In this document: positions 1-62,564 of the stretch, one piece after another
How the letters are laid out: the number at the start of each line of letters is the position of its first letter
Position numbering within the stretch: the stretch's first letter is position 1
DNA from: Rheinheimera sp. UJ63
Lineage (GTDB): Bacteria; Pseudomonadota; Gammaproteobacteria; Enterobacterales; Alteromonadaceae
Direction: 5' to 3'
Assembly (NCBI RefSeq): GCF_021568285.1
Contig: NZ_JAKGTQ010000006.1
Span: 62,001-126,000, forward strand
DNA: 64,000 bases
Translations under genes and position numbers: made by a program
The notes under the pieces: generated by a model
What the model was told of the DNA's origin: nothing
Databases searched by the model: none
The model's input: only the letters and a program-made list of their open reading frames with translations

Positions 1-2472
1 CGGAAACTACTACTTAATATGGAAATGTACAGTGATGATCGTTCATCAATGAAACTCTTTGGTACGGGGTCTCAATATGTTGATTCAGCATTGGGCGAAC
101 TTACCACCGAAGTGCTGATCGCCCCCCGTACCGTTATTATCATTGATGAAATTGAAAAAGCGCATCGTACGGTTATCCAGTCATTACTCACCCTATTGGA
201 AAAAGGTGAAATGACCGATCAAACCACCAACAAGGTCGTTGATTTTAGCCAATGTATTTTCGTGTTCACGACAAATCTCGGGCAAAAAGCCGCTAAACAA
301 AGTCTGTCAAAAAATAAACCGCTCGATTTAAGTGCATTACTTGCTGAAAAACCGGGGAAAGTCGGTTTGTCATCTGAACTGATCAGCCGCTTATCACGTG
401 GTAGTGTAGCGCTATTCAGAGAGCTAGAGATTAAAGACTTACTCAATATGGCAGAGCATGCAGCAAATATTGCGCGCGAAGATAAGACGCTTTGCTGGCC
501 TGAAGACTTACCTGAGATGCTCGTTGAAACCTTGGGTGGGGACCTTGCACCAAGAACCATCCTAGCTCAAGCCTCGAAACTACAGGGCAAGATTGTAGAG
601 TTTGTGTTATCAACAATCGAAGAAACCGCAAACGACCCACGTATCGAAGTTGAAATAGCAGAAGATATTGCGAACTTTCACTATGCTGTGGTGACTCAGG
701 ATCGCCTGTTAACGCGGCTGCTTAAAAAGTACTTTCCAAATTGCAAAGTATTAACGGACGTATCGCAAATCCAGCAATTATCTAGCGAGCAAAATATCCA
801 AGCGGTACTCATTGATCAACCGCAATGCTCGACCGAACTGGCTGCTGAACATAAAGGCAACTTACACTTTTACAGTTTTGGCTATCAACATCAGGGTGTT
901 GACGAAGCAATAAAACCAACACAAATAGAACGGCACTTTAAGCTTGTTGATTTTACCGTTCCATCATTAACCGCATTTATTAAGCAGGTTGCTAAACGTT
1001 GTCGCCTATTAACCAGCGCTGAGCAACTACGTAAGCGTAAAATGATGGTTGAGTTTGATTATCAACTCACGCGCATTGATGATGGTTTCAAAGTCACCCT
1101 GCAACACCCTGTTTATGAGCAACGCTTTGATCCTAACGATTTTGAAGCACCCTACATGCAGGAACCTTGCATTCCCAAAATTAGCTTTCAAGATATTATT
1201 GGTCAAGATGAGCTAAAACAGAGTATGACATTCATTTTACAACGGCTACGTGGTGCAAATGACTTTGTACTGGATATGCCAAAAGGCTATCTTTTTGCAG
1301 GTTTACCTGGGACAGGTAAAAGTTATTTTGCAAAAGCCATTGCAGGCGAGTGTCAAGTACCCTTTATTCCGGTAAACGCAGCAGATTTGATGAATGGAGA
1401 TGTGGTTATCAACATTAATCACTTATTTGAGGTGGCTGCACGTTATGCGCCATGTATTGTCTTTCTTGACGAAATTGACGCCATCGCGTTGAGCCGTGAA
1501 CAAAACTCTATACATGGCCGTTTAGCGGTTAATACGCTGCTAACCCAGTTAGATGGCTTTAACAACAGTGATAATCCGGTTTTTGTGTTGGCCGCAACCA
1601 ACTTTGCACATAAGCTTGACCCCGCTGTGATGCGTCACGGACGTTTTGATAAAATGGTAACTATCCCATTACCCGATCTCGCCGCACGCACACGCTTTAT
1701 CGAACAATGCTGCAATAAATATAAGTTTCAATTAACAGATGCTGCCTTACTCAGTTTTGCCAAACGCGTTAGCGGTGCATCATATGGTTTTCTTGAAACA
1801 CTGTTTCGCGATCTACAGCTAACGCTTCTCACTAAGCAATGCCAATTTAGTGCGAGTATGCTAGACGAACAATTGCTAGCGGCTACGATTGGAAATAAAA
1901 AAGCCGTTAGCTCCTATAATGATAAAGACCGCTTGGCCATTGCTTATCATGAAACAGGCCATTACCTTATGTACAAACATTTGCACCCCAAAGCGAGGTG
2001 CACCAACTTGTCGATCCAAGAACATGAAAGATCTGGCGGAATTACTATGTTTGATTTGGACGGGCAAGTGTTAAGCAACACAAAAGCAAATTATAAAGCT
2101 CAGTTGCAAGTGCTTTTGGCTGGACGCGCAGCGGAGAAACTACTCAGTGAACATGACGATGATATTTCAGCTGGCGCCAGTCATGATATTCAGCAGGCCA
2201 CACTACTCGCGAAACGTGCTATATCGGATCTGGGTTTCTCAGACAGCTTAGGTTTAGCTGATTTTAAGCAATTACCTATGCTACAGACCAAGGTAGAAAA
2301 CGAAGTAGTAGAATGGTTGAATACCGCGTTTATAGCCAGCGAAACGTACTTGCGGAAAAATTGGGCTTTAGTGAAACAAATTGCTGAAGTGTTATTTGAG
2401 CAAGAAACGTTAGATCAAGATCAGCTAGACAACATTGCAACGCTGCCAAATAAGAAGAATGCTAAAGCATAA
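1..2472 (+). CDS. Fused ClpB-like AAA + FtsH-like AAA + M41 protease (5' end outside window)
   Basis: The frame is open to the window edge, so the start lies upstream. Counting from the first in-frame ATG (position 19), a Clp/HSP100-type AAA piece comes first, with Walker B VIIIDEIEKAH near residues 39-49; its Walker A must be upstream. A second AAA module of FtsH type follows: Walker A GLPGTGKS near 428-436, Walker B VFLDEID near 480, and a second region of homology AATN...RHGRFD. The C-terminus is an M41 metallopeptidase with HETGH at 644-648 and the likely third zinc ligand D723 in GASHD. I see no FtsH-style N-terminal membrane anchor in the visible part. Energy-dependent proteolysis is the likely role. 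The target is unknown. FtsH is normally a single AAA plus M41, so this tandem fusion is unusual. A strong terminator follows directly. Confidence 0.85.
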   Translation, partial: RKLLLNMEMYSDDRSSMKLFGTGSQYVDSALGELTTEVLIAPRTVIIIDEIEKAHRTVIQSLLTLLEKGEMTDQTTNKVVDFSQCIFVFTTNLGQKAAKQSLSKNKPLDLSALLAEKPGKVGLSSELISRLSRGSVALFRELEIKDLLNMAEHAANIAREDKTLCWPEDLPEMLVETLGGDLAPRTILAQASKLQGKIVEFVLSTIEETANDPRIEVEIAEDIANFHYAVVTQDRLLTRLLKKYFPNCKVLTDVSQIQQLSSEQNIQAVLIDQPQCSTELAAEHKGNLHFYSFGYQHQGVDEAIKPTQIERHFKLVDFTVPSLTAFIKQVAKRCRLLTSAEQLRKRKMMVEFDYQLTRIDDGFKVTLQHPVYEQRFDPNDFEAPYMQEPCIPKISFQDIIGQDELKQSMTFILQRLRGANDFVLDMPKGYLFAGLPGTGKSYFAKAIAGECQVPFIPVNAADLMNGDVVININHLFEVAARYAPCIVFLDEIDAIALSREQNSIHGRLAVNTLLTQLDGFNNSDNPVFVLAATNFAHKLDPAVMRHGRFDKMVTIPLPDLAARTRFIEQCCNKYKFQLTDAALLSFAKRVSGASYGFLETLFRDLQLTLLTKQCQFSASMLDEQLLAATIGNKKAVSSYNDKDRLAIAYHETGHYLMYKHLHPKARCTNLSIQEHERSGGITMFDLDGQVLSNTKANYKAQLQVLLAGRAAEKLLSEHDDDISAGASHDIQQATLLAKRAISDLGFSDSLGLADFKQLPMLQTKVENEVVEWLNTAFIASETYLRKNWALVKQIAEVLFEQETLDQDQLDNIATLPNKKNAKA

Positions 2473-3616: not shown

Positions 3617-3727
3617 TATACCTCTGAATTGTGAGTTGCTTGCTACAACGTTTTAAAGTTGTTGGCAGGCAATTTTGCTTATGCTAAGGTTTTTAAGATA
3701 TGTATTGATAAAAGCCTAGATGACTTT

Positions 3728-6268
3728 ATGAGTGAAGAAATTAACAAGAAAGAAAGCCTACTCTATCGATTCATCTTACACAGCCTAGACCAGTATCAAA
3801 ACGGATTAGACTGCAAGTCTTTAACGTATCGATTTAGAGAATCGTTTAAACATTATCAAATAACAGAAAACAACACTCTGTCCGCACTTAGTTACCTAGA
3901 ACAAACCAATCGCATTAATAAATTACATGATAAATGGTTTCGGAATAAAAAAAACGATGCATTAGCCTGCTTAACCGAGAGTGATATCATCTTCGCTTTA
4001 ATTGTAAAGAAATTTACTCCCTACTCTTTCTCCCCGTCATTAGAGGAATATCTAGATACCACCATTCAAGCTTATGCCTCTGGAGTTGCTTCATCTTATA
4101 ATTATGATTTTTCTAACTATTTTCATGAGTGCATGAGTGGCATAAATACGTTACCAAACATTAAGAAATTAAAAGCTCATGAGTTTAAAAATATTCAACA
4201 ACCTTTAGCATTTAGACACTCATTTAAAAAGTCTATCTTAAAATTTTTTCAGTCCCAATCTATGAACGCCTTGAAAAACTTAATAAAAATCTTATTGAGC
4301 AAGGAGACAATTGATAGAATTGCAGACAAAGCATGGGTCAAAAATACTTTAGCAAAGCATCTATCTGATCTTATTTGTGGTGTTTGTGCTTATAGTCACG
4401 TTGTGAATGGTGGCAGTACCATTATATCGTCACTTATCTTAGAACGATTAATCGAACTTGCCCCTTTGTCATCGCAAAATAATATTTGGCTAGTTAATAA
4501 CATACAAGAGTCAAACCTCAAAAACCCTGCAAAGCAATTTTGCAACACACTGACGTTAAAACTGAAATACTTTATACGCAAGGCCAGTAATGAACAGAAA
4601 GAGTTGAATAGAAACGGTCATAAAGTAAACAACCAAGATGTAGATTTTACAACCTTTGATCTAACGATTTTTATTTATCATGTTTTATCACTCAGTGAAA
4701 ACAAAAAACTCCAAGAATCTTATTCGCTAGACTCCACCCCTGCTGCCATTAATTATTCTCAAGCTTTTAATTGTTGGGCGAAGACTAACTGTGATGATGA
4801 TGAACATAATCATTATGAAGAAGATGATTATTATCTAAACAACGTGAGGACTAACATAAATCAAATTTTAATATTTTTAATAAAACACACAGGTAACACT
4901 AAACAACACAGGTTTAATAAGGAAAATAGTTCTCAGAGTGATGAAGGACTTGCTAAAAATGAGAAACTTGAAGGCTTTGAATGGTTAGATGATAAAATCT
5001 ACGAAGAACTGTTTAAACAGATATCATTCGATTATGGCTATATGTCTAAGTTGCACTCATTTGATTTAGTCATTAGCGCGATTGTTAGACTCCCCTCAAG
5101 TTCTGATATAACCGATAATTTGCTGCTCAGACGGCGTAACTCTCGCCTCGCCGTTTTTTTCCAAATTTATACTAAAACCTTTGAATTTTATCAATCAATT
5201 CTGCTTAACTGGCCAGAACATAATGCGACAACAGAAAACGGTTCTCACAGCAGTATAGGCAACAATCCCACTGCGATAATGAGTTTTGATACTGACGAAA
5301 CCGATAGTCCTTTTCTTGAATCATCAGCAAGCATAAAAAATCATCCTGATATAACGAAAAGCAGAATTGAAGCGCGTTCTAACCGGATGTTTTTCATAGA
5401 GAACCTTATTAAATCCATAGGGCGTTGTGACAAAAATGCTTTCGTAGAGTACCTGATTTTGCACACCAGTTCTGACAGAAAGACAATTGTCAGCGACTTG
5501 ATGCAACTTGAAGCGATATATACGCTAAATGTTGGTATTGATGATGATGCCAACTTAATATTTAATCGGACAACAAATAGAGGCGCAGGCCTCTCAACCG
5601 CTGAAAAAAAACAAAGATTATTTCGTGCATTGATAAATGATATTCTTCGAAACTTTACTCCGCTAGAGTCTTTCGGCAAATATCAACTGGCTTTTGAACA
5701 ACTTCATATTGATTTAAGCGATGTAACTGCAGAAGAAAAAATATGGCTAGATAATCAGAAAAACCAACTAAAGCAATTGCCGCAAGTCGCAAAACGCTGG
5801 AATTTAGATTTGTGTCTTGAGCTTACCCAAAATATTGAATATCCAGAATTTATAAGCAACCCTAATACTCAGAACTGCAAAATAACAAAGTATAATGTGA
5901 TTTTGTACGATTATTACGGCATTACAGACAAGGAATACTTTAACGATATTATTCGAATAGAATCAATTTTAGATACTCGCTTTAGAGTCGGTGGTGGTTT
6001 TTCGTTCGCTATTGATGAGCAATATGAAGATTTAACTAATAACAGTAACATATCTTATTTCATACCACCGAGTAAAAAAAGTTATCTTGGTGATGTTTTG
6101 TTGGAGCATACGCTAGAAGCACTAGCAAAAGAATATCCTTTTGAAGGGAATTCAGCCTTTTTACAACAACAAATGACGAGCCTGATATATCCTCAGAAGC
6201 TGAAATTCAAATACTCGATGTTTAATGCTCTTGCTCATACTAAATTTTGTACACCATATCGAGGCTAA
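3728..6268 (+). CDS. Large protein of unknown function (about 846 aa)
   Basis: I do not recognise this family. The reading frame opens at a TTG at 3659; I prefer the ATG at 3728 (MSEEINKKE), though neither start has a strong ribosome-binding site. Residues 10-100 resemble a winged-helix domain (DCKSLTYRFRESFKHYQITE, then LSALSYLEQ), similar in style to the regulator upstream. The middle is helical with acidic, low-complexity stretches (CDDDEHNHYEEDDYY). The C-terminal part is mixed alpha/beta (YNVILYDYYGITDKEYF). No membrane segments, P-loop or clear catalytic motif were found. It lies 111 bases behind the WYL-type regulator on the same strand, so the two may be one transcription unit. A regulatory or DNA-associated role is only a guess. 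Confidence 0.7.
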   Translation: MSEEINKKESLLYRFILHSLDQYQNGLDCKSLTYRFRESFKHYQITENNTLSALSYLEQTNRINKLHDKWFRNKKNDALACLTESDIIFALIVKKFTPYSFSPSLEEYLDTTIQAYASGVASSYNYDFSNYFHECMSGINTLPNIKKLKAHEFKNIQQPLAFRHSFKKSILKFFQSQSMNALKNLIKILLSKETIDRIADKAWVKNTLAKHLSDLICGVCAYSHVVNGGSTIISSLILERLIELAPLSSQNNIWLVNNIQESNLKNPAKQFCNTLTLKLKYFIRKASNEQKELNRNGHKVNNQDVDFTTFDLTIFIYHVLSLSENKKLQESYSLDSTPAAINYSQAFNCWAKTNCDDDEHNHYEEDDYYLNNVRTNINQILIFLIKHTGNTKQHRFNKENSSQSDEGLAKNEKLEGFEWLDDKIYEELFKQISFDYGYMSKLHSFDLVISAIVRLPSSSDITDNLLLRRRNSRLAVFFQIYTKTFEFYQSILLNWPEHNATTENGSHSSIGNNPTAIMSFDTDETDSPFLESSASIKNHPDITKSRIEARSNRMFFIENLIKSIGRCDKNAFVEYLILHTSSDRKTIVSDLMQLEAIYTLNVGIDDDANLIFNRTTNRGAGLSTAEKKQRLFRALINDILRNFTPLESFGKYQLAFEQLHIDLSDVTAEEKIWLDNQKNQLKQLPQVAKRWNLDLCLELTQNIEYPEFISNPNTQNCKITKYNVILYDYYGITDKEYFNDIIRIESILDTRFRVGGGFSFAIDEQYEDLTNNSNISYFIPPSKKSYLGDVLLEHTLEALAKEYPFEGNSAFLQQQMTSLIYPQKLKFKYSMFNALAHTKFCTPYRG

Positions 6269-39091: not shown

Positions 39092-39892
39092 TTATTTTCT
39101 TTCTACCTTGAAATTCGTTAATTTACTGTTGGCGTTAAGCCATTCCAGAACTTTAGGAGTCAGTAAATCCAAAGTTGCTGGTTCAAATCGAGAGTTCAAG
39201 GCCTTAAAAAACCTTGCAACATCTTCCGGAAAGTCGGAAACATCAAATTGTGCTTTCAATTTCACCAATGAATCACGTAACCCCTGAATTTTAACTGCAC
39301 AATCCATCGTGACTATTCTAGTTTGCTTGAGTTTTTCTAAATTAGAAATATCGCTATTAAATTTTTGATAGTTTTCCTTTTGGGATGGATTATGTTTCTG
39401 ACTCTCTAATACCTGCTCTTCAATAAAAACACGTTTATCTATCAGCGTTAACCACTCATTCCAACAGTATTCATTGGCCTCTTTTATTCTTGCCAATAAT
39501 TCTTTTAATACGTCGCGAGCATGGATATATGAATCTTTTTGTTGGACTATATAATTTTCCTTTTCCCACGCTTGCTCAAACTCTTTAAACTTTGCAATAG
39601 CTTTGTCAATTAAAACAGTTAACTCCTGATTGAATACAATAGAACTAACACCATTTCGATACACACCACTTTCAGAGAAAACTAACGAATAGTCTGGTGT
39701 TTCATCTAATATATTGTTCACAAAATTCAAAGCCTGAATAAATTCAAATTGCGCATAGAGTTTATCATTAACAGCACGTAATTCACTGTAAATGACCTGG
39801 TTACCTTCAATTATTACTTCATTCTGTTGGGAGTTATCTGCCAAAAGAATCTCTGATTTAAAGGTGGCAATTCTTTCCTTCAAGCTATTCAT
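39092..39892 (-). CDS. dpdI: DpdI: coiled-coil protein of the Dpd restriction arm
   Basis: 266 residues, mostly helical with long heptad-like stretches (IDKAIAKFKEFEQAWEKENY, SDISNLEKLKQTRIVTMDCA). No enzyme motif. Position between the DpdH ATPase and DpdJ, with a 4-bp overlap with dpdH, matches dpdI in the known gene order. Likely a structural partner of DpdH; this is inference. Confidence 0.75.
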   Translation of the reverse strand: MNSLKERIATFKSEILLADNSQQNEVIIEGNQVIYSELRAVNDKLYAQFEFIQALNFVNNILDETPDYSLVFSESGVYRNGVSSIVFNQELTVLIDKAIAKFKEFEQAWEKENYIVQQKDSYIHARDVLKELLARIKEANEYCWNEWLTLIDKRVFIEEQVLESQKHNPSQKENYQKFNSDISNLEKLKQTRIVTMDCAVKIQGLRDSLVKLKAQFDVSDFPEDVARFFKALNSRFEPATLDLLTPKVLEWLNANSKLTNFKVERK

Positions 39893-42800
39893 TTACAATC
39901 GTTCTCCGTGAACGTAGTTAAGTGTGAAAGTGTTTGGTTTAAATTAAGATTGGTATTTTTTATACCTTGATTGAGTGCACTCAACTGATGTTTACCAACA
40001 GTATTATTGACTGATTGTATTTTCGGTAATGCTAGCCTTTCAAAAGTTTCCCATTGCGAAAGAACTTTTGACAATAAGGTAATGAGTCCTCCATCAAGGT
40101 TGGCTAGTATTTCAATCTCTTTTTGCTCATCTTCAACGGTTATTAGCTTGATGGCATTTTTAACCTCAATCCAACTTAAAGTTTCAAGCAATATTTTGAT
40201 ATCCTGATTGGCCGTTTTACGTTTTAGGATTTCATCTGGATAAAATCCCAAATCTTGAATAGATTTGTAAACTTCTCTTATATCTTCAAGTAAATCTTGA
40301 AATTCCTCTTTGTTCTCACAATCGCTAATAAACATTTTTATTTTAAGGAGGTTAGGCTTTATTTCATCGATTGCCGCTTTCTTAAGTCGCCGCAATGCTG
40401 GATCAAGCTTCTCCTCGCCATTTTTTCTGGCTTCTTTGATTGCAGCCTTTAATATGTCTGAGTCGATAGCAACATTTTCAATAAGAACAAGACTGGACCA
40501 AACTTTTTGCGTATCATCCCATTGGTCTAACAAAGCAGTCCTTAATTGTTCGAAACCAGAATTTAACGGTTCCTTTAGAATCGATTTGATGTGTACACTT
40601 TTCATTAAAAGCGTATTTTCAAGACTACCTTGCTCTTTTAGTCCTAAACCATTTAGCAACATCAACTGCTTATCCACCGAGCGTACTAAATACTTCTTAC
40701 GTAACGCCTTGAGAGCGACCTTTAAAACATGTGGAACCCATTTTTCAGCGAAATTTTTATAATAAGCAAAATCTTCATATCCTTTTTCATAATTCCACCC
40801 CGTAGATGGGTTATCTTTGTTAGTCCTGTGATAGCGAATTATCGCCAGTGCAGTCCGTTGTAGTACATTCGAAGACTTTTCATCATAGAAATCATGCTCT
40901 GAGCAAAATTCAACTAACGGTAAAGCATTGTTATTATTTGAGTTTGGTAGGCTAATTAAAAAGAGTTTATCTGACTTAAGAATTGCTTCAATGGCTGTTT
41001 TTTTTGTTTTTCCCACCTCAAATACTTTACTATTTTCAAAACCAGTCCATTCAGAAAGTGGAGATTCTTCAATCATTGTATAGAGTTGGCTTCTGAAGAA
41101 GTTCGCCAACTTAGAATCGATAGGTGCCTCATTGTTGAACCATTTCCCAAGTTGCTCCTCCAATAAATCCGCCTTATTTGGGGCAGGAATAGGTACGGGC
41201 TCAGGCGGTTTCTGTGGTGCTACCACAATAGGGCGTGGTGTAGGGATATGAATTTCACTTCCTAAGTAGGGAGCGAGTTCTGGTAAATTGAATGAAATAG
41301 CAACTTCTTTGGGTAAAGCTGATTTCAAAGCTTCCATGCTAGATTTGTCTGACCAGATTGAACAAAGTGTTATAGCTTGTTGCGGAGTCGAAAGACCCAA
41401 ATTGCTCAATTCAGCTAGAAGTGTTGGTTTGCGCTCTTTAAGTTCAACATTCTTAGGAAATATACCCGCTTCATAATCGTTTCGTTGATATCTTAAAATA
41501 TTAAGTAAAATATCATTTAACACATCTCGTGGATTAAAGATTAACGAACCGGAATCGTTGGAACAATACCATTTGGCAAGATTTACTATGGCCTCTTTAT
41601 TAAACGGGAAAAGTGGGATCTGTAAAGAAGATTTACCGAATGCTTCCAAACACAAGCTATCACTCTCATCTAACTCGTCATTCCATATAGGAATATTATC
41701 ATCCCAATTCTCAAGGCTAATGACATCCTGTAATTGGGACTTCCCATAGCGAGCCGCATTTAAATACCGACTACAAAAGTCGACTATTTTAGTAGGGATA
41801 TCTTCTTGGCTGTCCTGATTATTTTTGATTTGCCACTCAAATTTTGCTCTCGTTCTAATAGTGTTTTGTCTTCTTGTATAACCGCTGTAGCCACTTGTAA
41901 CAGCGAGTACTGATTTCAGAGTGCATAATTCATCTTTAGCCTCCTCTAACAGGCAATCTATCAAGACATCTTCGATAGCCGAAATTGCAGCGAGATCTTC
42001 CACTAAAATAACAAGGGTTTGATTACGAGCTTTTAGGTGCTTTCTTATTTCTTTAAATAAATCTTGAAAGTTACCACTGCCAAATTGAAATAATTGTTGA
42101 AAAGCAGTTTGTGAGGCGCGGCCAACCCCTTCATTTATTATTTCTAAAGCCTTTTTACTTCGCTCGGGGCTGTCTAATCTAAGTGCACTTAACGCTTTAC
42201 GAGCTGGTAACGACAAATCATCTATTTCAATCTCTTCAATCATCGAGTCAAAATCTTTCTGTGACAAAGCAAATTCTTTTTGGTGCAACTCTTCCTCTGT
42301 TGCCCCTTTTATCCACCTAGTTGCTATATTGTAAATATAACTATCATCACCAATGAGTCTTGATTTAAATTCAATATCGTCAACTAAATTAGGGAGTTGT
42401 TTAGCAAATTGTATCCTTTTTATTACTTCTTGTGCTTCAGCAGAACCAGGTTGGCAGTTATCCAAAAGTTGAACACTCTCTTCACCAATATCCTGAATGC
42501 CATGTTTTAAGTGAGTACCAAAAAGATCAGCTATTTTCCTAGCGACTAGAGTATTTCCGACTTCGTCTACCTGTTTTCGCGCGTTTTCAAAAACATCTCC
42601 TTCCAAACCGTTAAGAAGAAGGTGAAGGGTCTGTCTTAAACTTGCATTCTTCGGGATTCGCACTATCTGCCAGTTTTCTTCCTGAACTATTTTCTCATTT
42701 TTAAGCTTCGCATGTAGCCACCTTATGAGGTGTGATTTACCTAACCCTGCATCAGCAACGATAGGAATAGGCCTATCAATTCTTAAAAAATGTTCTAGAA

Positions 42801-42963
42801 GGTCCTTTTCGGTAGCCTCTTCTTCGAATGTATTGCTACTAAATTTTGTCAACTGCATCGGTTCATGAACAGCCAGCAATGCCTCATCAGAGAGTTCTTC
42901 AGCTTCAGTTTTGATACAATCAATTACGTTTTGTACAGATGGCCAGTATCTTTCTAAACTCAT
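39889..42963 (-). CDS. dpdH: DpdH: large P-loop ATPase of the Dpd restriction arm
   Basis: 1024 residues. Walker A is VADAGLGKSHLIRWLH near residues 72-83; a Walker B-like strand LVILVEDLAAISAIED is near 318. A proline-rich linker (PTPRPIVVAPQKPPEPVPIP) near 580 separates the ATPase part from a long helical C-terminal part. STAND- or BREX-like ATPase architecture is possible. Overlaps dpdG by 4 bases and dpdI by 4 bases (ATGA), so translation is coupled. Confidence 0.85.
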   Translation of the reverse strand: MSLERYWPSVQNVIDCIKTEAEELSDEALLAVHEPMQLTKFSSNTFEEEATEKDLLEHFLRIDRPIPIVADAGLGKSHLIRWLHAKLKNEKIVQEENWQIVRIPKNASLRQTLHLLLNGLEGDVFENARKQVDEVGNTLVARKIADLFGTHLKHGIQDIGEESVQLLDNCQPGSAEAQEVIKRIQFAKQLPNLVDDIEFKSRLIGDDSYIYNIATRWIKGATEEELHQKEFALSQKDFDSMIEEIEIDDLSLPARKALSALRLDSPERSKKALEIINEGVGRASQTAFQQLFQFGSGNFQDLFKEIRKHLKARNQTLVILVEDLAAISAIEDVLIDCLLEEAKDELCTLKSVLAVTSGYSGYTRRQNTIRTRAKFEWQIKNNQDSQEDIPTKIVDFCSRYLNAARYGKSQLQDVISLENWDDNIPIWNDELDESDSLCLEAFGKSSLQIPLFPFNKEAIVNLAKWYCSNDSGSLIFNPRDVLNDILLNILRYQRNDYEAGIFPKNVELKERKPTLLAELSNLGLSTPQQAITLCSIWSDKSSMEALKSALPKEVAISFNLPELAPYLGSEIHIPTPRPIVVAPQKPPEPVPIPAPNKADLLEEQLGKWFNNEAPIDSKLANFFRSQLYTMIEESPLSEWTGFENSKVFEVGKTKKTAIEAILKSDKLFLISLPNSNNNNALPLVEFCSEHDFYDEKSSNVLQRTALAIIRYHRTNKDNPSTGWNYEKGYEDFAYYKNFAEKWVPHVLKVALKALRKKYLVRSVDKQLMLLNGLGLKEQGSLENTLLMKSVHIKSILKEPLNSGFEQLRTALLDQWDDTQKVWSSLVLIENVAIDSDILKAAIKEARKNGEEKLDPALRRLKKAAIDEIKPNLLKIKMFISDCENKEEFQDLLEDIREVYKSIQDLGFYPDEILKRKTANQDIKILLETLSWIEVKNAIKLITVEDEQKEIEILANLDGGLITLLSKVLSQWETFERLALPKIQSVNNTVGKHQLSALNQGIKNTNLNLNQTLSHLTTFTENDCK

Positions 42964-58337: not shown

Positions 58338-58370
58338 TATGCATCAGATGCGTTCTCTACTATTTATAGT
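58338..58370 (+). promoter_or_regulatory. Shared leader element, copy A (before the TPR gene)
   Basis: TTATGCATCAGATG followed 10 bases later by TATTTATAGTG. CATCAGATG (58342-58350) is a palindrome with a central A. The element ends 89 bases before the start codon. Near-identical copies precede the S26 and lipoprotein genes. Confidence 0.75.
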
Positions 58371-58438
58371 GCCCTCTAACAACTAGGTCGTTAAGTTATT
58401 GAAACTGGTTAGTTTCGCTAAAATTATTGGAGTATGAC

Positions 58439-60466
58439 ATGCAAAGTTTGACATTTCCTGAAAGTAAAAATTTTCATTTTATCAGCGTGTTAGCAGGCGA
58501 GCTTAGTCATTCCTTGACGAGTGAAGATGTGCTATCAACTGAGGCCCAAGATGTTTATAGCGCTATATACGAGCTTTTGCTAAATGCGGCTGAACCCCTT
58601 AAATATATTGAAAACGACGTGGAGCGCAGTCTATCAGCAGAGTTAATGCAATCCCCTGAAGTGTTCGATTTAGAAAAAGCTAAAACGTTATTTGCAAATT
58701 CAGCATTGTCAATACTAAACCAATCGCTTGCACTTGCTCTTATTTCTTGGTTTGAGCACGGCACCGACTCGCTTGCTCGTTGGCTGAATTTGAAGTCTGA
58801 TGAGCAAAAAACGTTTCTTTATATTGCTTGTAATCTATTTACAAGTCTTGATTCGAGATTCTCGGCTGAGCAGTTTCTGAAATACTTAGCGTTAAAGTAT
58901 GTATCGAAACTGGGGCAGCAGTTCGACGAGCAACAGCTTCAAGCCTACATAAACATTGTTATTTTGCAGAGTAAGTTTTGTTATGAATTGCGAATAGATT
59001 TTGAACTGGCTTTCACTCTTTTAAATAGTGGGCTTGATGTCTTAGATAATTTAAACACAAGAGTCAAAGATTCATTGTTATATTTGGAATGCGAGCAGGT
59101 ACTTACAGGTAAATTAGGCGATCTTTACTCACGGCATGTTTATGTTAACCTTGCGAACCAACTTTGTTACAGAAACCTAGCTATTAGTCGGCGTATCATT
59201 AAACAGTTTGGTGGAACACCTGCGCGTTTTCAAGAATTAGCTATCGCGTTTGGTCGACTAGGTAACTTTGAAGCACTTTATCATGATTCTGGCAGAACAG
59301 CGAAAAAATGGTACTTGCAAAGCTTAATTATCATCGAAGAACAGATGGCTAAGTTTGGTGAAACACCTGAGCGTATGGAATATGTTATTAAATTACTCCA
59401 CGCTTTAGTTTTTAGGTATAATAGTGGTGAAAGTTTGGTTTCCAAGCGCAACATATTAGCAGAGTGTTTAGCTATCTGCGATAAGCTAATTTATGTAGAT
59501 GGTGAAACAGAAGAGCGCTTAGACATTTTAGCTGATGTGCTTGAAAACTTGCATTACGGAGAGAGGGAAAAGGATTTTGCCAATGCTGAGCGCTCTTTAG
59601 CCATTCGTGAAAGGTTATTTGCAGGAGATAGTGAAGCTAGAGGTTATTTAAGATCTCTATTTTATCCATTCACAAAACTTGCAAATAATTATGCTCGTAG
59701 CGGTAATGAGGAGGCAGCAAGAGCAACATATACTCGTTTCATTAACATCGCAGAGAATCAAATTAGTCTAAAACCAAATTTTCTTGACTCAGATATGTTG
59801 TCTGCTGCTCTTAGATATTTAGCAGAATTTGAATACGAAATTGGTAATTTTGTTTCAGCTAAAGCATGTTTTACGCGTTATTTAGCTGTCTTAGATGAGT
59901 ATCCTTTACCATCTTCTGAAATTGAAATTAAGATATCCGTGCTGCATCGTTTAGCAATGCTCGATGAGGCTAACGGTGATGATGCCAGCGCAATGGATCA
60001 TTATTTACAAATTGTGGCTATTAATAATCAACAGTATATTGAGCAGTCAGCTTCACCCGAATGTTTGCGAGCGTTAACGGTTGCGCTAAGTCGTTTAGCT
60101 GATCATGATGATTGTAATATTTTAACTGCCTTGGAAGGTTATAAAAAGTCTTTAATCATTTTGGAGTGCCTGATGTATGCCTTTGGTGAATCAACGGAAG
60201 TGATTCAGGGTCTAAATATTTTAATCGAACAATGGACTGAAGAAATGGATCTTAGCTTATTGAGTGATGTAAAAGTTTGTTATGCACGTTACTCATTAAT
60301 CGTTGATCGATTGCTTGCGGATTTAGAGCAGAAACCAAAGTTTCGAAAGAGTGTATTGGATGAACTTCGACGTTTTTTTCATAAAGAAGAAACGTTAAAC
60401 TCAATCGATACCGATACCGATACCGATACCGATACCGATTACATCTTTCTAGACTTTGAATTTTAA
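58439..60466 (+). CDS. TPR-repeat protein with C-terminal Thr-Asp repeats (675 aa)
   Basis: The start at ATG 58439 follows TTGGAGTATGAC, the same ribosome-binding context as the S26 gene. The protein is almost all helical; from about residue 210 to 620 the helices are in TPR-like pairs (AISRRIIKQFGGTPARFQEL, ANAERSLAIRERLFAGD, NFVSAKACFTRYLAVLDEY, DDASAMDHYLQIVAINNQQ). No signal peptide, so it is likely cytoplasmic, a scaffold or sensor. The end carries a run of Asp-Thr encoded by a six-base repeat, then DYIFLDFEF. It has its own leader element and terminator, so it is a single-gene unit in a probable regulon. Confidence 0.8.
   Translation: MQSLTFPESKNFHFISVLAGELSHSLTSEDVLSTEAQDVYSAIYELLLNAAEPLKYIENDVERSLSAELMQSPEVFDLEKAKTLFANSALSILNQSLALALISWFEHGTDSLARWLNLKSDEQKTFLYIACNLFTSLDSRFSAEQFLKYLALKYVSKLGQQFDEQQLQAYINIVILQSKFCYELRIDFELAFTLLNSGLDVLDNLNTRVKDSLLYLECEQVLTGKLGDLYSRHVYVNLANQLCYRNLAISRRIIKQFGGTPARFQELAIAFGRLGNFEALYHDSGRTAKKWYLQSLIIIEEQMAKFGETPERMEYVIKLLHALVFRYNSGESLVSKRNILAECLAICDKLIYVDGETEERLDILADVLENLHYGEREKDFANAERSLAIRERLFAGDSEARGYLRSLFYPFTKLANNYARSGNEEAARATYTRFINIAENQISLKPNFLDSDMLSAALRYLAEFEYEIGNFVSAKACFTRYLAVLDEYPLPSSEIEIKISVLHRLAMLDEANGDDASAMDHYLQIVAINNQQYIEQSASPECLRALTVALSRLADHDDCNILTALEGYKKSLIILECLMYAFGESTEVIQGLNILIEQWTEEMDLSLLSDVKVCYARYSLIVDRLLADLEQKPKFRKSVLDELRRFFHKEETLNSIDTDTDTDTDTDYIFLDFEF
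60406..60439 (+). repeat. Hexanucleotide tandem repeat inside the TPR gene (CGATAC x5.7)
   Basis: Five full CGATAC units and a partial one encode alternating Asp-Thr near the C-terminus. Because the unit is six bases, slippage changes protein length by two residues without a frameshift. Confidence 0.95.
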
Positions 60467-60506
60467 TTTGATTAGTAAATTAAGAAACGTACTAAGTTAA
60501 AAAAAT

Positions 60507-60529
60507 CGCCAGCTAATCTGGCGTTTTTT
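60507..60529 (+). terminator. Intrinsic terminator of the TPR gene
   Basis: CGCCAG, a 5-nt loop, CTGGCG and six T, with an A run before the stem. Strong rho-independent terminator 40 bases after the stop. Confidence 0.93.
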
Positions 60530-60633
60530 ATTTCCTCATAATTCAGGGATAAATTGACAGTTGATGTGGTTAAAGGCTTTGCGTCCAAGTTTCCAATTTT
60601 AATTAACGATTAAATTGGTTGTGTCATTTTCAT

Positions 60634-60666
60634 TATGCATCAGATGAGCGGCCCTTATTTATAGTG
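60634..60666 (+). promoter_or_regulatory. Shared leader element, copy B (before the S26 gene)
   Basis: TTATGCATCAGATG, then 9 bases, then TATTTATAGTG. CATCAGATG is at 60638-60646, 91 bases before the ATG. Between it and copy A the core is almost identical, while the flanking DNA differs. Confidence 0.75.
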
Positions 60667-60737
60667 TTCTCTTACGGCCAAGCAGTTTAGTAAACCATTA
60701 CACACTGCTAATTATCCTTTATCTGTTGGAGAATGAC

Positions 60738-61445
60738 ATGATTATTTCGCAATCGGCGCCCGCCAAAACTAATTCAAATAACATGAGTAAAAAGTGGTTA
60801 TGGTTATTTGTCCCTCTTCTAATGGCATCTATGTTCTTAACATGGGTAGCGTTATCAACAAACTCATATATTGCAAATATTACGGGTATATCGATGCTCC
60901 CGTTAATAAAGAATGGCGACAAAGCTTTTATGCAAAGCGTTGGATCAAAAATAGAGGTGGGTAAAATTCACGGAGTAAGTTCTTTTAAAACTTCGTACAG
61001 TGAAACAGGCGTATCGCCAAACCTGATGAAACGAATTATAGCAGGGCCAGGCGATACTTTAGTCTTTCATGCCAGCACTGGAGAATGGTTGTCCATTAAC
61101 GGCCAAGATGTTGTCATTTCGCCAGCTCAGGGGCACGAAGATTTGTTCTTAACTAATGCAAGCAAAACATATAAGCTTTTGGCAGGAGAGATTGAACACT
61201 TAAAAACCCCAATTTATCGTGTTGAAACTAATAATGTTAATGACATGCCGATTACATTTGCTTATTTGAACGAACATGCTGATGTTGATCATAAAGTGGT
61301 CGTGCATGTTCCAGATGATCATTATTTTGTTATGTCAGATAACTGGCTAGGAAATTTGGATAGCCGTTACTTTGGACCCATCCACAAAAGACATCTGCGG
61401 TTTAAAGTGGTTGCAGTTTTACCGAAACACACGCAGTTGCATTAA
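60738..61445 (+). CDS. S26-family signal peptidase (LepB/TraF type)
   Basis: 235 residues from ATG 60738 (GGAG 6 bases upstream). One membrane segment at about 20-40 (WLWLFVPLLMASMFLTWVAL). Catalytic serine in GISMLPLIKNGD (S52), lysine in NLMKRIIAGPGD (K98), and the conserved end FVMSDNWLGNLDSRYFGPI, with S where most enzymes have G (FVMGDN). Type I signal peptidases of the TraF kind process pilins or selected exported proteins. Here it may serve the neighbouring exported subtilase or lipoprotein. It has its own leader element and terminator. Confidence 0.88.
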   Translation: MIISQSAPAKTNSNNMSKKWLWLFVPLLMASMFLTWVALSTNSYIANITGISMLPLIKNGDKAFMQSVGSKIEVGKIHGVSSFKTSYSETGVSPNLMKRIIAGPGDTLVFHASTGEWLSINGQDVVISPAQGHEDLFLTNASKTYKLLAGEIEHLKTPIYRVETNNVNDMPITFAYLNEHADVDHKVVVHVPDDHYFVMSDNWLGNLDSRYFGPIHKRHLRFKVVAVLPKHTQLH

Positions 61446-61467
61446 CAACGTTATCTTGTTTCATTAA

Positions 61468-61500
61468 ACAAAGCAGGCACATCGCCTGCTTTGTGCATTT
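61468..61500 (+). terminator. Intrinsic terminator of the S26 gene
   Basis: ACAAAGCAGGC and GCCTGCTTTGT form an 11-bp stem with a 5-nt loop, followed by GCATTTT. Located 23 bases after the stop. Confidence 0.85.
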
Positions 61501-61559
61501 TAAAAAGATCTTTTTAAGTTGGAAAAAATTTCAACTTTTTTTGCAAATAAGTCTTTGGA

Positions 61560-61600
61560 TAATCATCAGATGCATGGCCTCTCATTAATATGGTTTTTAT
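61560..61600 (+). promoter_or_regulatory. Shared leader element, copy C (before the lipoprotein gene)
   Basis: CATCAGATG at 61564-61572, then CATGGCCTCTCATTAATATG and TTTTTATCGG. The GGCC...CT...ATT.ATA pattern follows copy B closely (GGCCCTTATTTATAGTG). 94 bases before the start codon. Confidence 0.65.
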
Positions 61601-61666
61601 CGGATGCGCGGGAAAGAAATTTTTTCGTTGCTCTTTTACTGATCAGTTATTACAGAGGTATTGCTT

Positions 61667-62536
61667 ATGAAAAATCTTATCGCACTTTCTTTATTTATTC
61701 CGTTACTTACTGCTTGTGGCGGTGGTGAATCAGAGCCACCTATTGGACCTTTTAGTGCCAGGCTAAGTACCATTCCTAGCGTTCTTAACGAGAGTAGCAC
61801 GTTACCTGTCTCGGTAACGGTGCAGAATGTGAAAACTTCAGCAAACTTTACGGTAGTTTCTAATATTCCACAGATCATCGTTATGCGTGGAGAGGGTAAT
61901 AACTTTACGCTGCAAGTTGCAGAGGTTGATAGAGAATATTCAGGGTTTATCACATTAACCGCTATCGATGGAACGGATGAAACGCGGCGGGTGCTTACTA
62001 ATATTCAGGTAACAATAGATAACAGCTCATTTACTGAAAAACTGGCTGATATCGAGTTTTTACAAAGCCAGCGTGAACGTTTAGTCGCGGCAACCGAAGA
62101 AGAAACGCTGTTAGTAGCGTTGCGTGAACTAATGGTGCTCAACAACCCAAGTGAACAAGCAGCACAAACTAGCCACAGCGCTATAAATACCAACGCGACT
62201 GCACTCTCTAGCGCAATTGCTGCGATACAGGTGAGTAATTATAAGCAAGGTAATGTGTCTGATGCGCAACTTATAACTGAGTATCAGTATGCACTCACTC
62301 ACCTTGAGGAGCATATGGCGCCTTATCGTACATTACTGAATACGCTTTTTAGCCAACTTGCTAACAGTTTACCTGCCGTCGTGCAAGCCAACCAATTTCA
62401 GTTAAATACTCAGCTTAAAACGTCTTCCTTTTTTACGGGTAATGCTGCTTTGGGCCAAGTAGTAGGAGATCAATGGGTTTTCAATGATGACGTCGCTTAT
62501 TTAGCTGATTTAACCAACAACACTTGTGGCTTATAA
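61667..62536 (+). CDS. Lipoprotein, beta-domain N-terminus and helical C-terminus (289 aa)
   Basis: Starts MKNLIALSLFIPLLTACGGG: short signal with lipobox LTAC, acceptor Cys at 17, then Gly/Glu/Pro-rich linker. Residues 25-110 look like an immunoglobulin-like or cadherin-like beta domain (TLPVSVTVQNVKTSANFTVV...). The rest is helical. ATG 61667 follows AGAGG. The subtilase starts 28 bases after its stop, so the two are one operon. It may be the membrane anchor, substrate or inhibitor of the protease; the sequence does not say which. Confidence 0.75.
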   Translation: MKNLIALSLFIPLLTACGGGESEPPIGPFSARLSTIPSVLNESSTLPVSVTVQNVKTSANFTVVSNIPQIIVMRGEGNNFTLQVAEVDREYSGFITLTAIDGTDETRRVLTNIQVTIDNSSFTEKLADIEFLQSQRERLVAATEEETLLVALRELMVLNNPSEQAAQTSHSAINTNATALSSAIAAIQVSNYKQGNVSDAQLITEYQYALTHLEEHMAPYRTLLNTLFSQLANSLPAVVQANQFQLNTQLKTSSFFTGNAALGQVVGDQWVFNDDVAYLADLTNNTCGL

Positions 62537-62564
62537 GCTCATTTAATATTTTAGGAGAATGACT

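Follow-up and report, generated by a model that had tools for sequence, protein, structure and literature searches.

The question raised by this locus is whether a short motif repeated in front of three separate genes marks one dedicated regulon. The locus lies in a stretch of 64,000 nt of Rheinheimera sp. UJ63, contig positions 62,001-126,000, which we call the window; its host contig, named C18, makes up 4.3% of the 3.84-Mb UJ63 genome. The first-pass annotation of this DNA had placed the 9-mer CATCAGATG at positions 58342, 60638 and 61564, and had proposed that a single regulator, perhaps the nearby WYL protein, or an alternative sigma factor acts on all three promoters. These positions are exact: the 9-mer occurs exactly three times in the window, always on the plus strand, against 0.33 copies expected, and none of 100 shuffled windows reached three copies. 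The proposal of one dedicated regulon is well supported, and the regulon is wider than was claimed, with seven sites on C18 and three in a second species, Rheinheimera sp. D18 (NZ_CP037745.1), before orthologous genes. We consider it probable (about 0.62) that a WYL activator controls these sites as a regulon that serves one multi-protease system, island-borne and so far undescribed.

The three 9-mers are the cores of a longer promoter element, which consists of an imperfect palindrome (TATGCATC-A-GATGCATA), about 9 nt, and then a -10 hexamer of the form TAnnnT, without a recognisable -35 box. The similar AT-rich block that had been noticed behind each 9-mer is this -10 region, with TAnnnT 27-28 nt from the start of the element; the first two sites carry the block exactly as TATTTATAGTG, the third in a looser form, CATTAATATGG. 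The spacing of 89-94 bases to a start codon was close: 88, 91 and 94 nt separate the last base of the 9-mer from the ATG. The intervening genes had also been credited with terminators of their own. This holds for the gap between the first two genes, encoding a TPR-like and an S26 signal peptidase-like protein, where there is a clear terminator-like hairpin, and not for the gap between the S26 gene and the lipoprotein gene, where the hairpin (61468-61494, read by eye and absent from the list of the scan) has no T run. The scan gave three terminator-like sites, compared with 3.9 expected in shuffles.

The genome-wide motif search that had been suggested gave a divided answer: the extended element is rare, and the bare 9-mer is unspecific. 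The latter is present in 36 copies in UJ63 and 24 in D18, versus 8 and 4 for a reversed-pattern control, which rules it out as a signature of the regulon. A pattern built from the three window sites and two D18 sites, TATGCATCAGATG-N13-TANNNT with up to two mismatches, found five sites in UJ63, all on C18 (the three known and two new ones; reversed control, none), and four in D18 (two known, one new within the island and one elsewhere, at 3057298, which we take as chance; reversed control, one). When C18 was scored with a palindrome matrix made from seven sites, seven sites reached at least 18 bits, the next position scoring 14.0; on 60 kb of D18, the matrix gave three sites and their opposite-strand readings, followed by a score of 12.1. 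The sites at C18 positions 41931, 45333 and 159280 were outside that matrix. UJ63 thus has seven copies of the element, all on C18 and spread over 117 kb.

In a leave-one-out analysis of the palindrome alone, all 10 sites (seven of UJ63 and three of D18) scored higher, at 17.2-28.7 bits, than any other position on C18 and in the 60-kb region of D18, a background of 451,332 positions. A full sequence model of the 10 sites was applied to 31 genomes of the genus; in each, the 150 top-ranked of roughly 2000 first-look candidates were scored (150 of 2057). The UJ63 sites then scored 21.5-25.7 bits and the D18 sites 22.2-28.9 bits; the next UJ63 match scored 15.2 bits and the best match in any other genome of the genus 15.3 bits, which is background level. 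This gap is partly by construction because the 10 sites are in the model, and the mismatch-pattern and leave-one-out searches are the fairer tests of specificity. With stricter filters, the full model found clusters of elements only in UJ63 and D18 among 395 genomes of the family. Four single matches in other family genomes (E 0.003-0.018) compare with about eight expected at E <= 0.02 over 393 genomes before the strict filters, and fewer with them; we take these matches as chance, and the best of the four sits, by eye, inside coding sequence. Single exact 13-mers in three relatives (G001, G007 and G027) represent one similar sequence, which looked coding by eye.

The geometry of the element is nearly invariant. 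TAnnnT is offset by 27 nt from the start of the site in nine of the 10 cases and by 28 in one, some of these sites having come from a pattern that already included the hexamer. It is also found at 27 in all four sites that were discovered without the -10 (those before the D18 lipoprotein and S26 genes, and C18 45333 and 41931), where chance would give it at a given offset in 2.0% of cases, or 2.8-2.9% in AT-rich sequence; at one site it reads TATAAT. The best -35 match in the 10 promoters is 2-4 of 6 positions (mean 2.7), compared with a mean of 2.5 at 599 random TAnnnT positions. The promoters therefore share the poor or absent -35 of the DriD, SiwR and PafBC type, and all 10 also have the other trait of that type, a motif in the -35/-26 region at a fixed distance from TAnnnT. 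The two arms of the palindrome agree at 4-9 of 9 positions (random mean, 2.3), and if the hexamer is the -10, the palindrome spans about -38 to -22 with its centre near -30. Sequence similarity among the leaders largely ends at the palindrome and the -10.

The distance from motif to start codon falls into classes. It is 97-103 nt in six leaders, those of the TPR, S26, lipoprotein and ADP-ribosylglycohydrolase genes of UJ63 and of the lipoprotein and S26 genes of D18, where the ADP-ribosylglycohydrolase leader was counted to the ATG following AGGTGG (C18 42033, read by eye). These six leaders (window 58338-61667, L045 1931-2035 and L019) differ in sequence yet keep their length. In three ClpB-FtsH leaders the distance is 70 nt, in UJ63 as well as in D18, and in the membrane-protein unit it is 116 nt to the listed GTG. 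Folding the RNA of six leaders, three from the window and three of ClpB-FtsH genes, gave z values of 0.58, -0.64, -0.58, -1.13, -0.69 and +1.80. An RNA leader element was ruled out, and the element probably acts as DNA, because none of these six leader RNAs has an unusual fold. In ClpB-FtsH leaders, inverted repeats, CCCCTAAG..CTTAGGGG and ACTCCCA..TGGGAGT (L039 12783-12826 and L045 5366-5408), lie downstream of the discriminator and ahead of the Shine-Dalgarno sequence. The D18 ClpB-FtsH leader has a similar CCCCC..GGGGG, and RNA folding gave no such pairing; the repeats of the CCCC...GGGG type in front of two ClpB-FtsH genes probably begin before the transcript does.

D18 carries most of the regulon genes together with the regulator in one compact island. 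Its element before the lipoprotein gene (CTATGCATCAGATGCATAG, 98 nt to the ATG) is a perfect palindrome about a central A, and that before the S26 gene is TTATGCATCAGATGAATAG (99 nt to the ATG). The identities of the D18 homologues are given in the table; that of the WYL-like protein is 33%, and the small-protein match is less clear than the others. The window S26 protein matched eight of 60 relatives at E <= 0.001, of which, besides UJ63, only D18 matched strongly (2e-31), the other six lying between 1e-5 and 5e-4; at E <= 1e-10, two of 395 family genomes matched, again UJ63 and D18 (relative G025). A peptide-pattern search of genome contigs likewise returned D18 only, which is weak evidence since two very specific patterns were used and 63 stretches matched. 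The TPR-like protein has no homologue at E <= 0.001 in the 59 other relatives, D18 included. Scans of viral sequences with the S26 and WYL profiles, in which 26 and 120 stretches matched a pattern, yielded no relative, and the S26 search of plasmids gave no match at E <= 1e-8. At E <= 1e-45, an S8 profile found UJ63 and one partial relative, G077, among 369 genomes of the class. In G077 what looks by eye like a lipoprotein-S8-like pair adjoins presumed TonB-ExbB-like genes, and the 13 kb around the pair contain no element (best match, 13 of 19). Because this pair exists without the element, lipoprotein-S8-like pairs can also occur in other settings. At the start of the D18 island lies a tyrosine-integrase-like gene (L041 16206-17453), beside a gene that is presumably yicC-like; no exact direct repeat of 14-16 bases of the island junction was found on the plus strand of the 60 kb. 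The D18 islands described in PMC7155750 and PMC7775301 appear to be others than this one.

What, then, does the element control? Exported or TPR proteins had been expected behind all copies, which is too narrow because export is not obvious for the ClpB-FtsH proteases or the ADP-ribosylglycohydrolase. There are three genes for ClpB-FtsH(M41) fusions, copies 0, 1 and 2 (L044 18196 to L045 1858, L045 5408-8998, and L039 12825 to window 2472; the domain assignment was made on copy 1), and the element precedes copies 1 and 2 but not copy 0. Over 615 residues, copies 0 and 2 share 91% identity, and about the first 330 of these residues are nearly identical, which suggests a recent duplication or gene conversion. 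The IetAS defence system was considered and ruled out: the S8 protein scored only 15.5 bits against IetS (PADLOC), and the AAA protein, which carries an M41 domain, scored higher as FtsH (227.5 bits, below the model cut-off of 600) than as IteA (100.6 bits). Among the regulon proteins tried against PADLOC and NCBIfam, no model named the set. The literature search likewise found no published description of the gene set or the element among the titles and abstract openings listed.

Coordinates of the promoter elements, their target genes and associated features (window positions unless marked as C18, that is, contig positions; distances to ATG are counted from the first base of CATCAGATG)
Feature	Position	Strand	Remarks
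Element 1, before TPR gene	58338..58370 (C18 120337)	+	palindrome 58338-58354 (TATGCATCAGATGCGTT); -10 TATAGT 58365-58370; 97 nt to ATG
Element 2, before S26 gene	60634..60665 (C18 122633)	+	palindrome 60634-60650; -10 TATAGT 60660-60665; 100 nt to ATG
Element 3, before lipoprotein-S8 genes	61560..61591 (C18 123559)	+	palindrome 61560-61576; -10 TAATAT 61586-61591; 103 nt to ATG
Element	C18 41931		before ADP-ribosylglycohydrolase gene, then gene for 560-aa protein with Calx-beta domains and weak metallopeptidase match
Element	C18 45333		before ClpB-FtsH/M41 fusion copy 1
Element	C18 60750		before ClpB-FtsH/M41 fusion copy 2; just outside window
Element	C18 159280	-	before two membrane-type proteins; D18 homologues 30% and 26%
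ClpB-FtsH(M41) fusion copy 2, 3' part	1..2472	+	start at C18 60825, just outside window; D18 orthologue 70% over last 389 residues compared, 43% over 290 N-terminal residues
WYL-B, second candidate regulator, 240 aa	2894..3616	+	paralogue of WYL-A
869-aa protein	3659..6268	+	homologue of D18 721-aa protein adjoining its ClpB-FtsH gene
WYL-A, candidate regulator, 249 aa	56445..57194	-	winged helix and degenerate WYL domain
Small protein adjoining WYL-A, 173 aa	57247..57768	-	weak match (27%) to small protein adjoining D18 WYL gene
TPR-like protein, 675 aa	58439..60466	+	Pfam TPR matches all below cut-off
Terminator-like hairpin between TPR and S26 genes	60507..60523	.	hairpin scan
S26 signal-peptidase-like protein, 235 aa	60738..61445	+	D18 orthologue 39% over 193 residues
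Lipoprotein-like protein, 289 aa	61667..62536	+	D18 orthologue 34%
S8 subtilase, 591 aa	62559..64000	+	ends outside window at C18 126334; D18 orthologue 44%

The nearby WYL protein had been named as the possible regulator. The support is indirect; it comes from structural matches of WYL-A to WYL factors, from the co-occurrence of orthologues and from the activator-like layout of the promoters. WYL-A and WYL-B are both homologues of the D18 WYL-like protein. At E <= 1e-4, a profile of these three had matches in 28 of the 395 family genomes, and matches above 370 bits, the three proteins themselves, occur only in UJ63 and D18, the genomes that bear the element; the remaining matches score below 43 bits, and the open frames that contain them, of 327-386 codons, exceed WYL-A in length. 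Both this profile and the element model were built from the genomes in which they co-occur. All seven Foldseek matches of the predicted WYL-A structure at E <= 0.001 are WYL factors (PafBC, DriD, CapW and BrxR), with PafBC at the top. The model contains helices at residues 12-28, 37-46 and 53-63 and strands at 69-72 and 77-80 (predicted local distance difference test, pLDDT, 74-87 for residues 21-80), and winged-helix structures match it with Z up to 9.7. WYL-A also has the WYL (Sm-like) fold, at moderate model confidence: residues 147-242 align to the C-domain chain of DriD with Z 7.8 and 3.5 Å over 89 residues, a Z below 8 being weak alone. In sequence comparisons, the PADLOC WYL match of WYL-A had an E-value of 0.0098, Pfam WYL gave no match at E <= 1, and an ArgR-like DNA-binding match of WYL-B (25.9 bits) fell just under the Pfam cut-off of 27. 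All three WYL proteins share residues S52, Q55, L56, R58, L60 and N61, which lie within or border the putative recognition helix (residues 53-63).

Taken together, these results point to the following mechanism. The element would be an activator-dependent promoter of the sigma-70 type, in which the palindrome replaces the -35 box at a fixed distance from TAnnnT. A dimeric winged-helix WYL protein, WYL-A or WYL-B, most likely binds the palindrome and, once bound, would recruit RNA polymerase as DriD, SiwR and PafBC do. At least seven units would thereby be co-activated: the TPR, S26 and lipoprotein-S8 units, the two ClpB-FtsH genes, the ADP-ribosylglycohydrolase unit, including the possible secreted-metalloprotease gene downstream, and the membrane-protein pair. 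The signal may be nucleic-acid fragments or DNA damage.

Several observations weigh against this proposal. The system is carried by only two genomes, and the palindrome is degenerate in several sites, the S26 site retaining only 4 of 9 arm matches. The element is missing from the promoters of WYL-A, WYL-B, the D18 WYL unit and ClpB-FtsH copy 0. UJ63 has two WYL paralogues, either of which could be the regulator, and co-occurrence does not single out the WYL proteins because the target genes co-occur too. The mean pLDDT of the WYL-A model is 65.7, its Foldseek matches have whole-chain template modelling scores of about 0.25-0.30 with root-mean-square deviations of 12-17 Å, and its sequence has no match at E <= 1 among solved WYL proteins. 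In a second structural comparison, other winged-helix families rank highest; WYL factors reach Z 7.8-8.5, and CapW (8.5) and BrxR (8.4) tie with PafBC (8.1) and DriD (7.9), so that activators and repressors are not separated.

CapW, which is tied to the antiphage system CBASS (cyclic-oligonucleotide-based antiphage signalling system), acts as a repressor. The palindrome could be the operator of a BrxR/CapW-type WYL repressor that sits on the -35/-10 region and is released by phage infection or damage. BrxR represses by binding inverted repeats at defence loci (PMC9122601). Foldseek lists both for WYL-A, the second comparison ties them with the activators, and the palindrome does overlap the region bound by polymerase. 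However, none of the 10 promoters has the good -35 that a simple repressed promoter usually needs, and the E-values of Foldseek rank PafBC and DriD first, by a small margin. Moreover, the studied BrxR repeat has 11-bp arms with a 5-bp spacer and lies downstream of the predicted -10 (PMC9122601), unlike the site described here. BrxR also controls its own promoter, whereas the WYL genes have no element in front; the best score for the element upstream of WYL-A, WYL-B and the D18 WYL gene was 6.7 bits, compared with 17.2-28.7 bits for the true sites in the leave-one-out analysis. We therefore regard repression as an unlikely, although still sizeable, alternative to activation. That some other island protein reads the element, be it the 869/721-aa protein, an unrecognised transcription factor or two proteins together, appears rather improbable. 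The 869/721-aa protein is kept beside the ClpB-FtsH/WYL genes in both genomes, which also counts against a WYL regulator, and the model of the 721-aa protein contains two helix-helix-helix-strand-strand segments that could be winged helices. That model is too poor to use, however (mean pLDDT 34), and no family match was found for the 721-aa protein in Pfam, PADLOC and NCBIfam, nor for the 869-aa protein in Pfam and PADLOC.

The other half of the original proposal, an alternative sigma factor that reads the element as a -35/-10 pair, would account for two conserved blocks at a fixed distance without a sigma-70 -35. It is disfavoured and in our view very unlikely, since the -10 has the normal form TAnnnT and the upstream block shows the palindromic near-symmetry that sites for dimers typically have; no sigma factor was noticed among the open reading frames listed, although not every reading frame was scanned. 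Finally, the similarity might be due to chance or to duplicated leader DNA without shared control, given that the bare 9-mer is common and that the ClpB-FtsH leaders are those of paralogous genes and of one orthologous gene. The leave-one-out result, the outcome of the mismatch-pattern and matrix searches, and the restriction of leader similarity largely to the palindrome and the -10 speak against it, as does the presence of the sites before non-homologous genes and their recurrence in D18, whose lipoprotein, S26 and S8 proteins have diverged to 34-44% identity; this explanation is hardly credible.

In UJ63 the regulon lies among anti-phage loci, namely a Dpd cluster, an MkoA-like helicase gene and a type I-F CRISPR locus. 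The cluster for 7-deazaguanine DNA modification (Dpd; window 28721-49479) encodes DpdA, DpdB, a QueC-like protein, DpdD, DpdK, DpdJ, DpdG, DpdF and DpdE; PADLOC models called all nine of the proteins scanned, a set from which the reading frames at 39092-42963 were left out. Past the window end, at contig 128.5-136 kb, there are cas3f and then csy-like genes, presumed to be such from their order and sequence, with a repeat array (L003 15563-20000 and L004 1-3155). The divergent region before cas3 (C18 about 128393-128412) has a different palindrome, GCATCA-ATTG-TGATGC. Beside the membrane-protein pair (L040 62-6477) there is a possible operon including a MotA/ExbB-like protein with a weak ZorA match; we take its products to be PEGA/formylglycine-type, MotA/ExbB-like and von Willebrand-type proteins. 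The element was also scored upstream of the Dpd genes, cas3, WYL-A, WYL-B, the D18 WYL unit, one small-protein gene and ClpB-FtsH copy 0, and was found at none of them (best score 8.6 bits, near Dpd), which rules it out as a general control of the island. The anti-phage neighbours, together with the tyrosine-integrase-like gene in D18, suggest horizontal spread and a role in conflict or stress.

Defence-rich islands are usually read gene by gene, and methods based on neighbourhood would miss the grouping described here: the promoter signature suggests that genes as much as 117 kb from each other form one group, although unrelated systems lie between. Tentatively, they could form a multi-protease conflict or stress system, largely one compact island in one species and, in another, shattered over 117 kb and interspersed with Dpd, Mokosh-like and type I-F CRISPR loci, yet held together as one unit by a WYL activator and a shared promoter, and perhaps fired by nucleic-acid fragments during infection. 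If the activator reading holds, this would be a case, in a proteobacterium, of a WYL-activator regulon that apparently does not belong to the DNA-damage response. It gives a handle on the protease-rich gene set in the form of a 19-bp site, two candidate regulators and seven targets.

How does the element compare with known systems? BrxR and CapW resemble the candidate regulators in being WYL factors in defence-rich regions that use inverted repeats (PMC9122601), but BrxR is a repressor of its own and a neighbouring promoter with another repeat geometry. Promoters of PafBC, which acts by sigma adaptation, have the form tTGTCRgtg-8nt-TannnT (PMC5656591, PMC11804915). Here too, the motif replaces the -35 and is combined with TAnnnT, and PafBC is the top Foldseek match of WYL-A; in contrast, PafBC is a heterodimer with a non-palindromic motif and serves the DNA-damage response. 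SiwR, a WYL activator of Mycobacterium smegmatis, acts through an imperfect palindrome of 19 bp located between the -35 and the -10, with the -26 region required for activation (PMC10693628). It shares with the element an imperfect palindrome upstream of the -10, whereas its site has another sequence, belongs to another phylum and is described for one operon beside the regulator, not for seven units over 117 kb. The sites of DriD, a WYL activator of Caulobacter, are 20-bp pseudo-palindromes over a poor -35 at a constant distance from the -10 in several units (PMC12340889). The element has the same arrangement, palindrome, poor -35, fixed -10 distance and several separate units, and WYL-A matches DriD structures. 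DriD differs in its consensus, ATACGAC-N7-GTCGTAT, the palindrome described here having its centre near -30, in its role in the DNA-damage response, compared with island protease genes here, and in its chains of 319-329 aa, compared with 249 aa for WYL-A. The promoter layout is of the same kind as that of DriD, SiwR and PafBC, with a new sequence.

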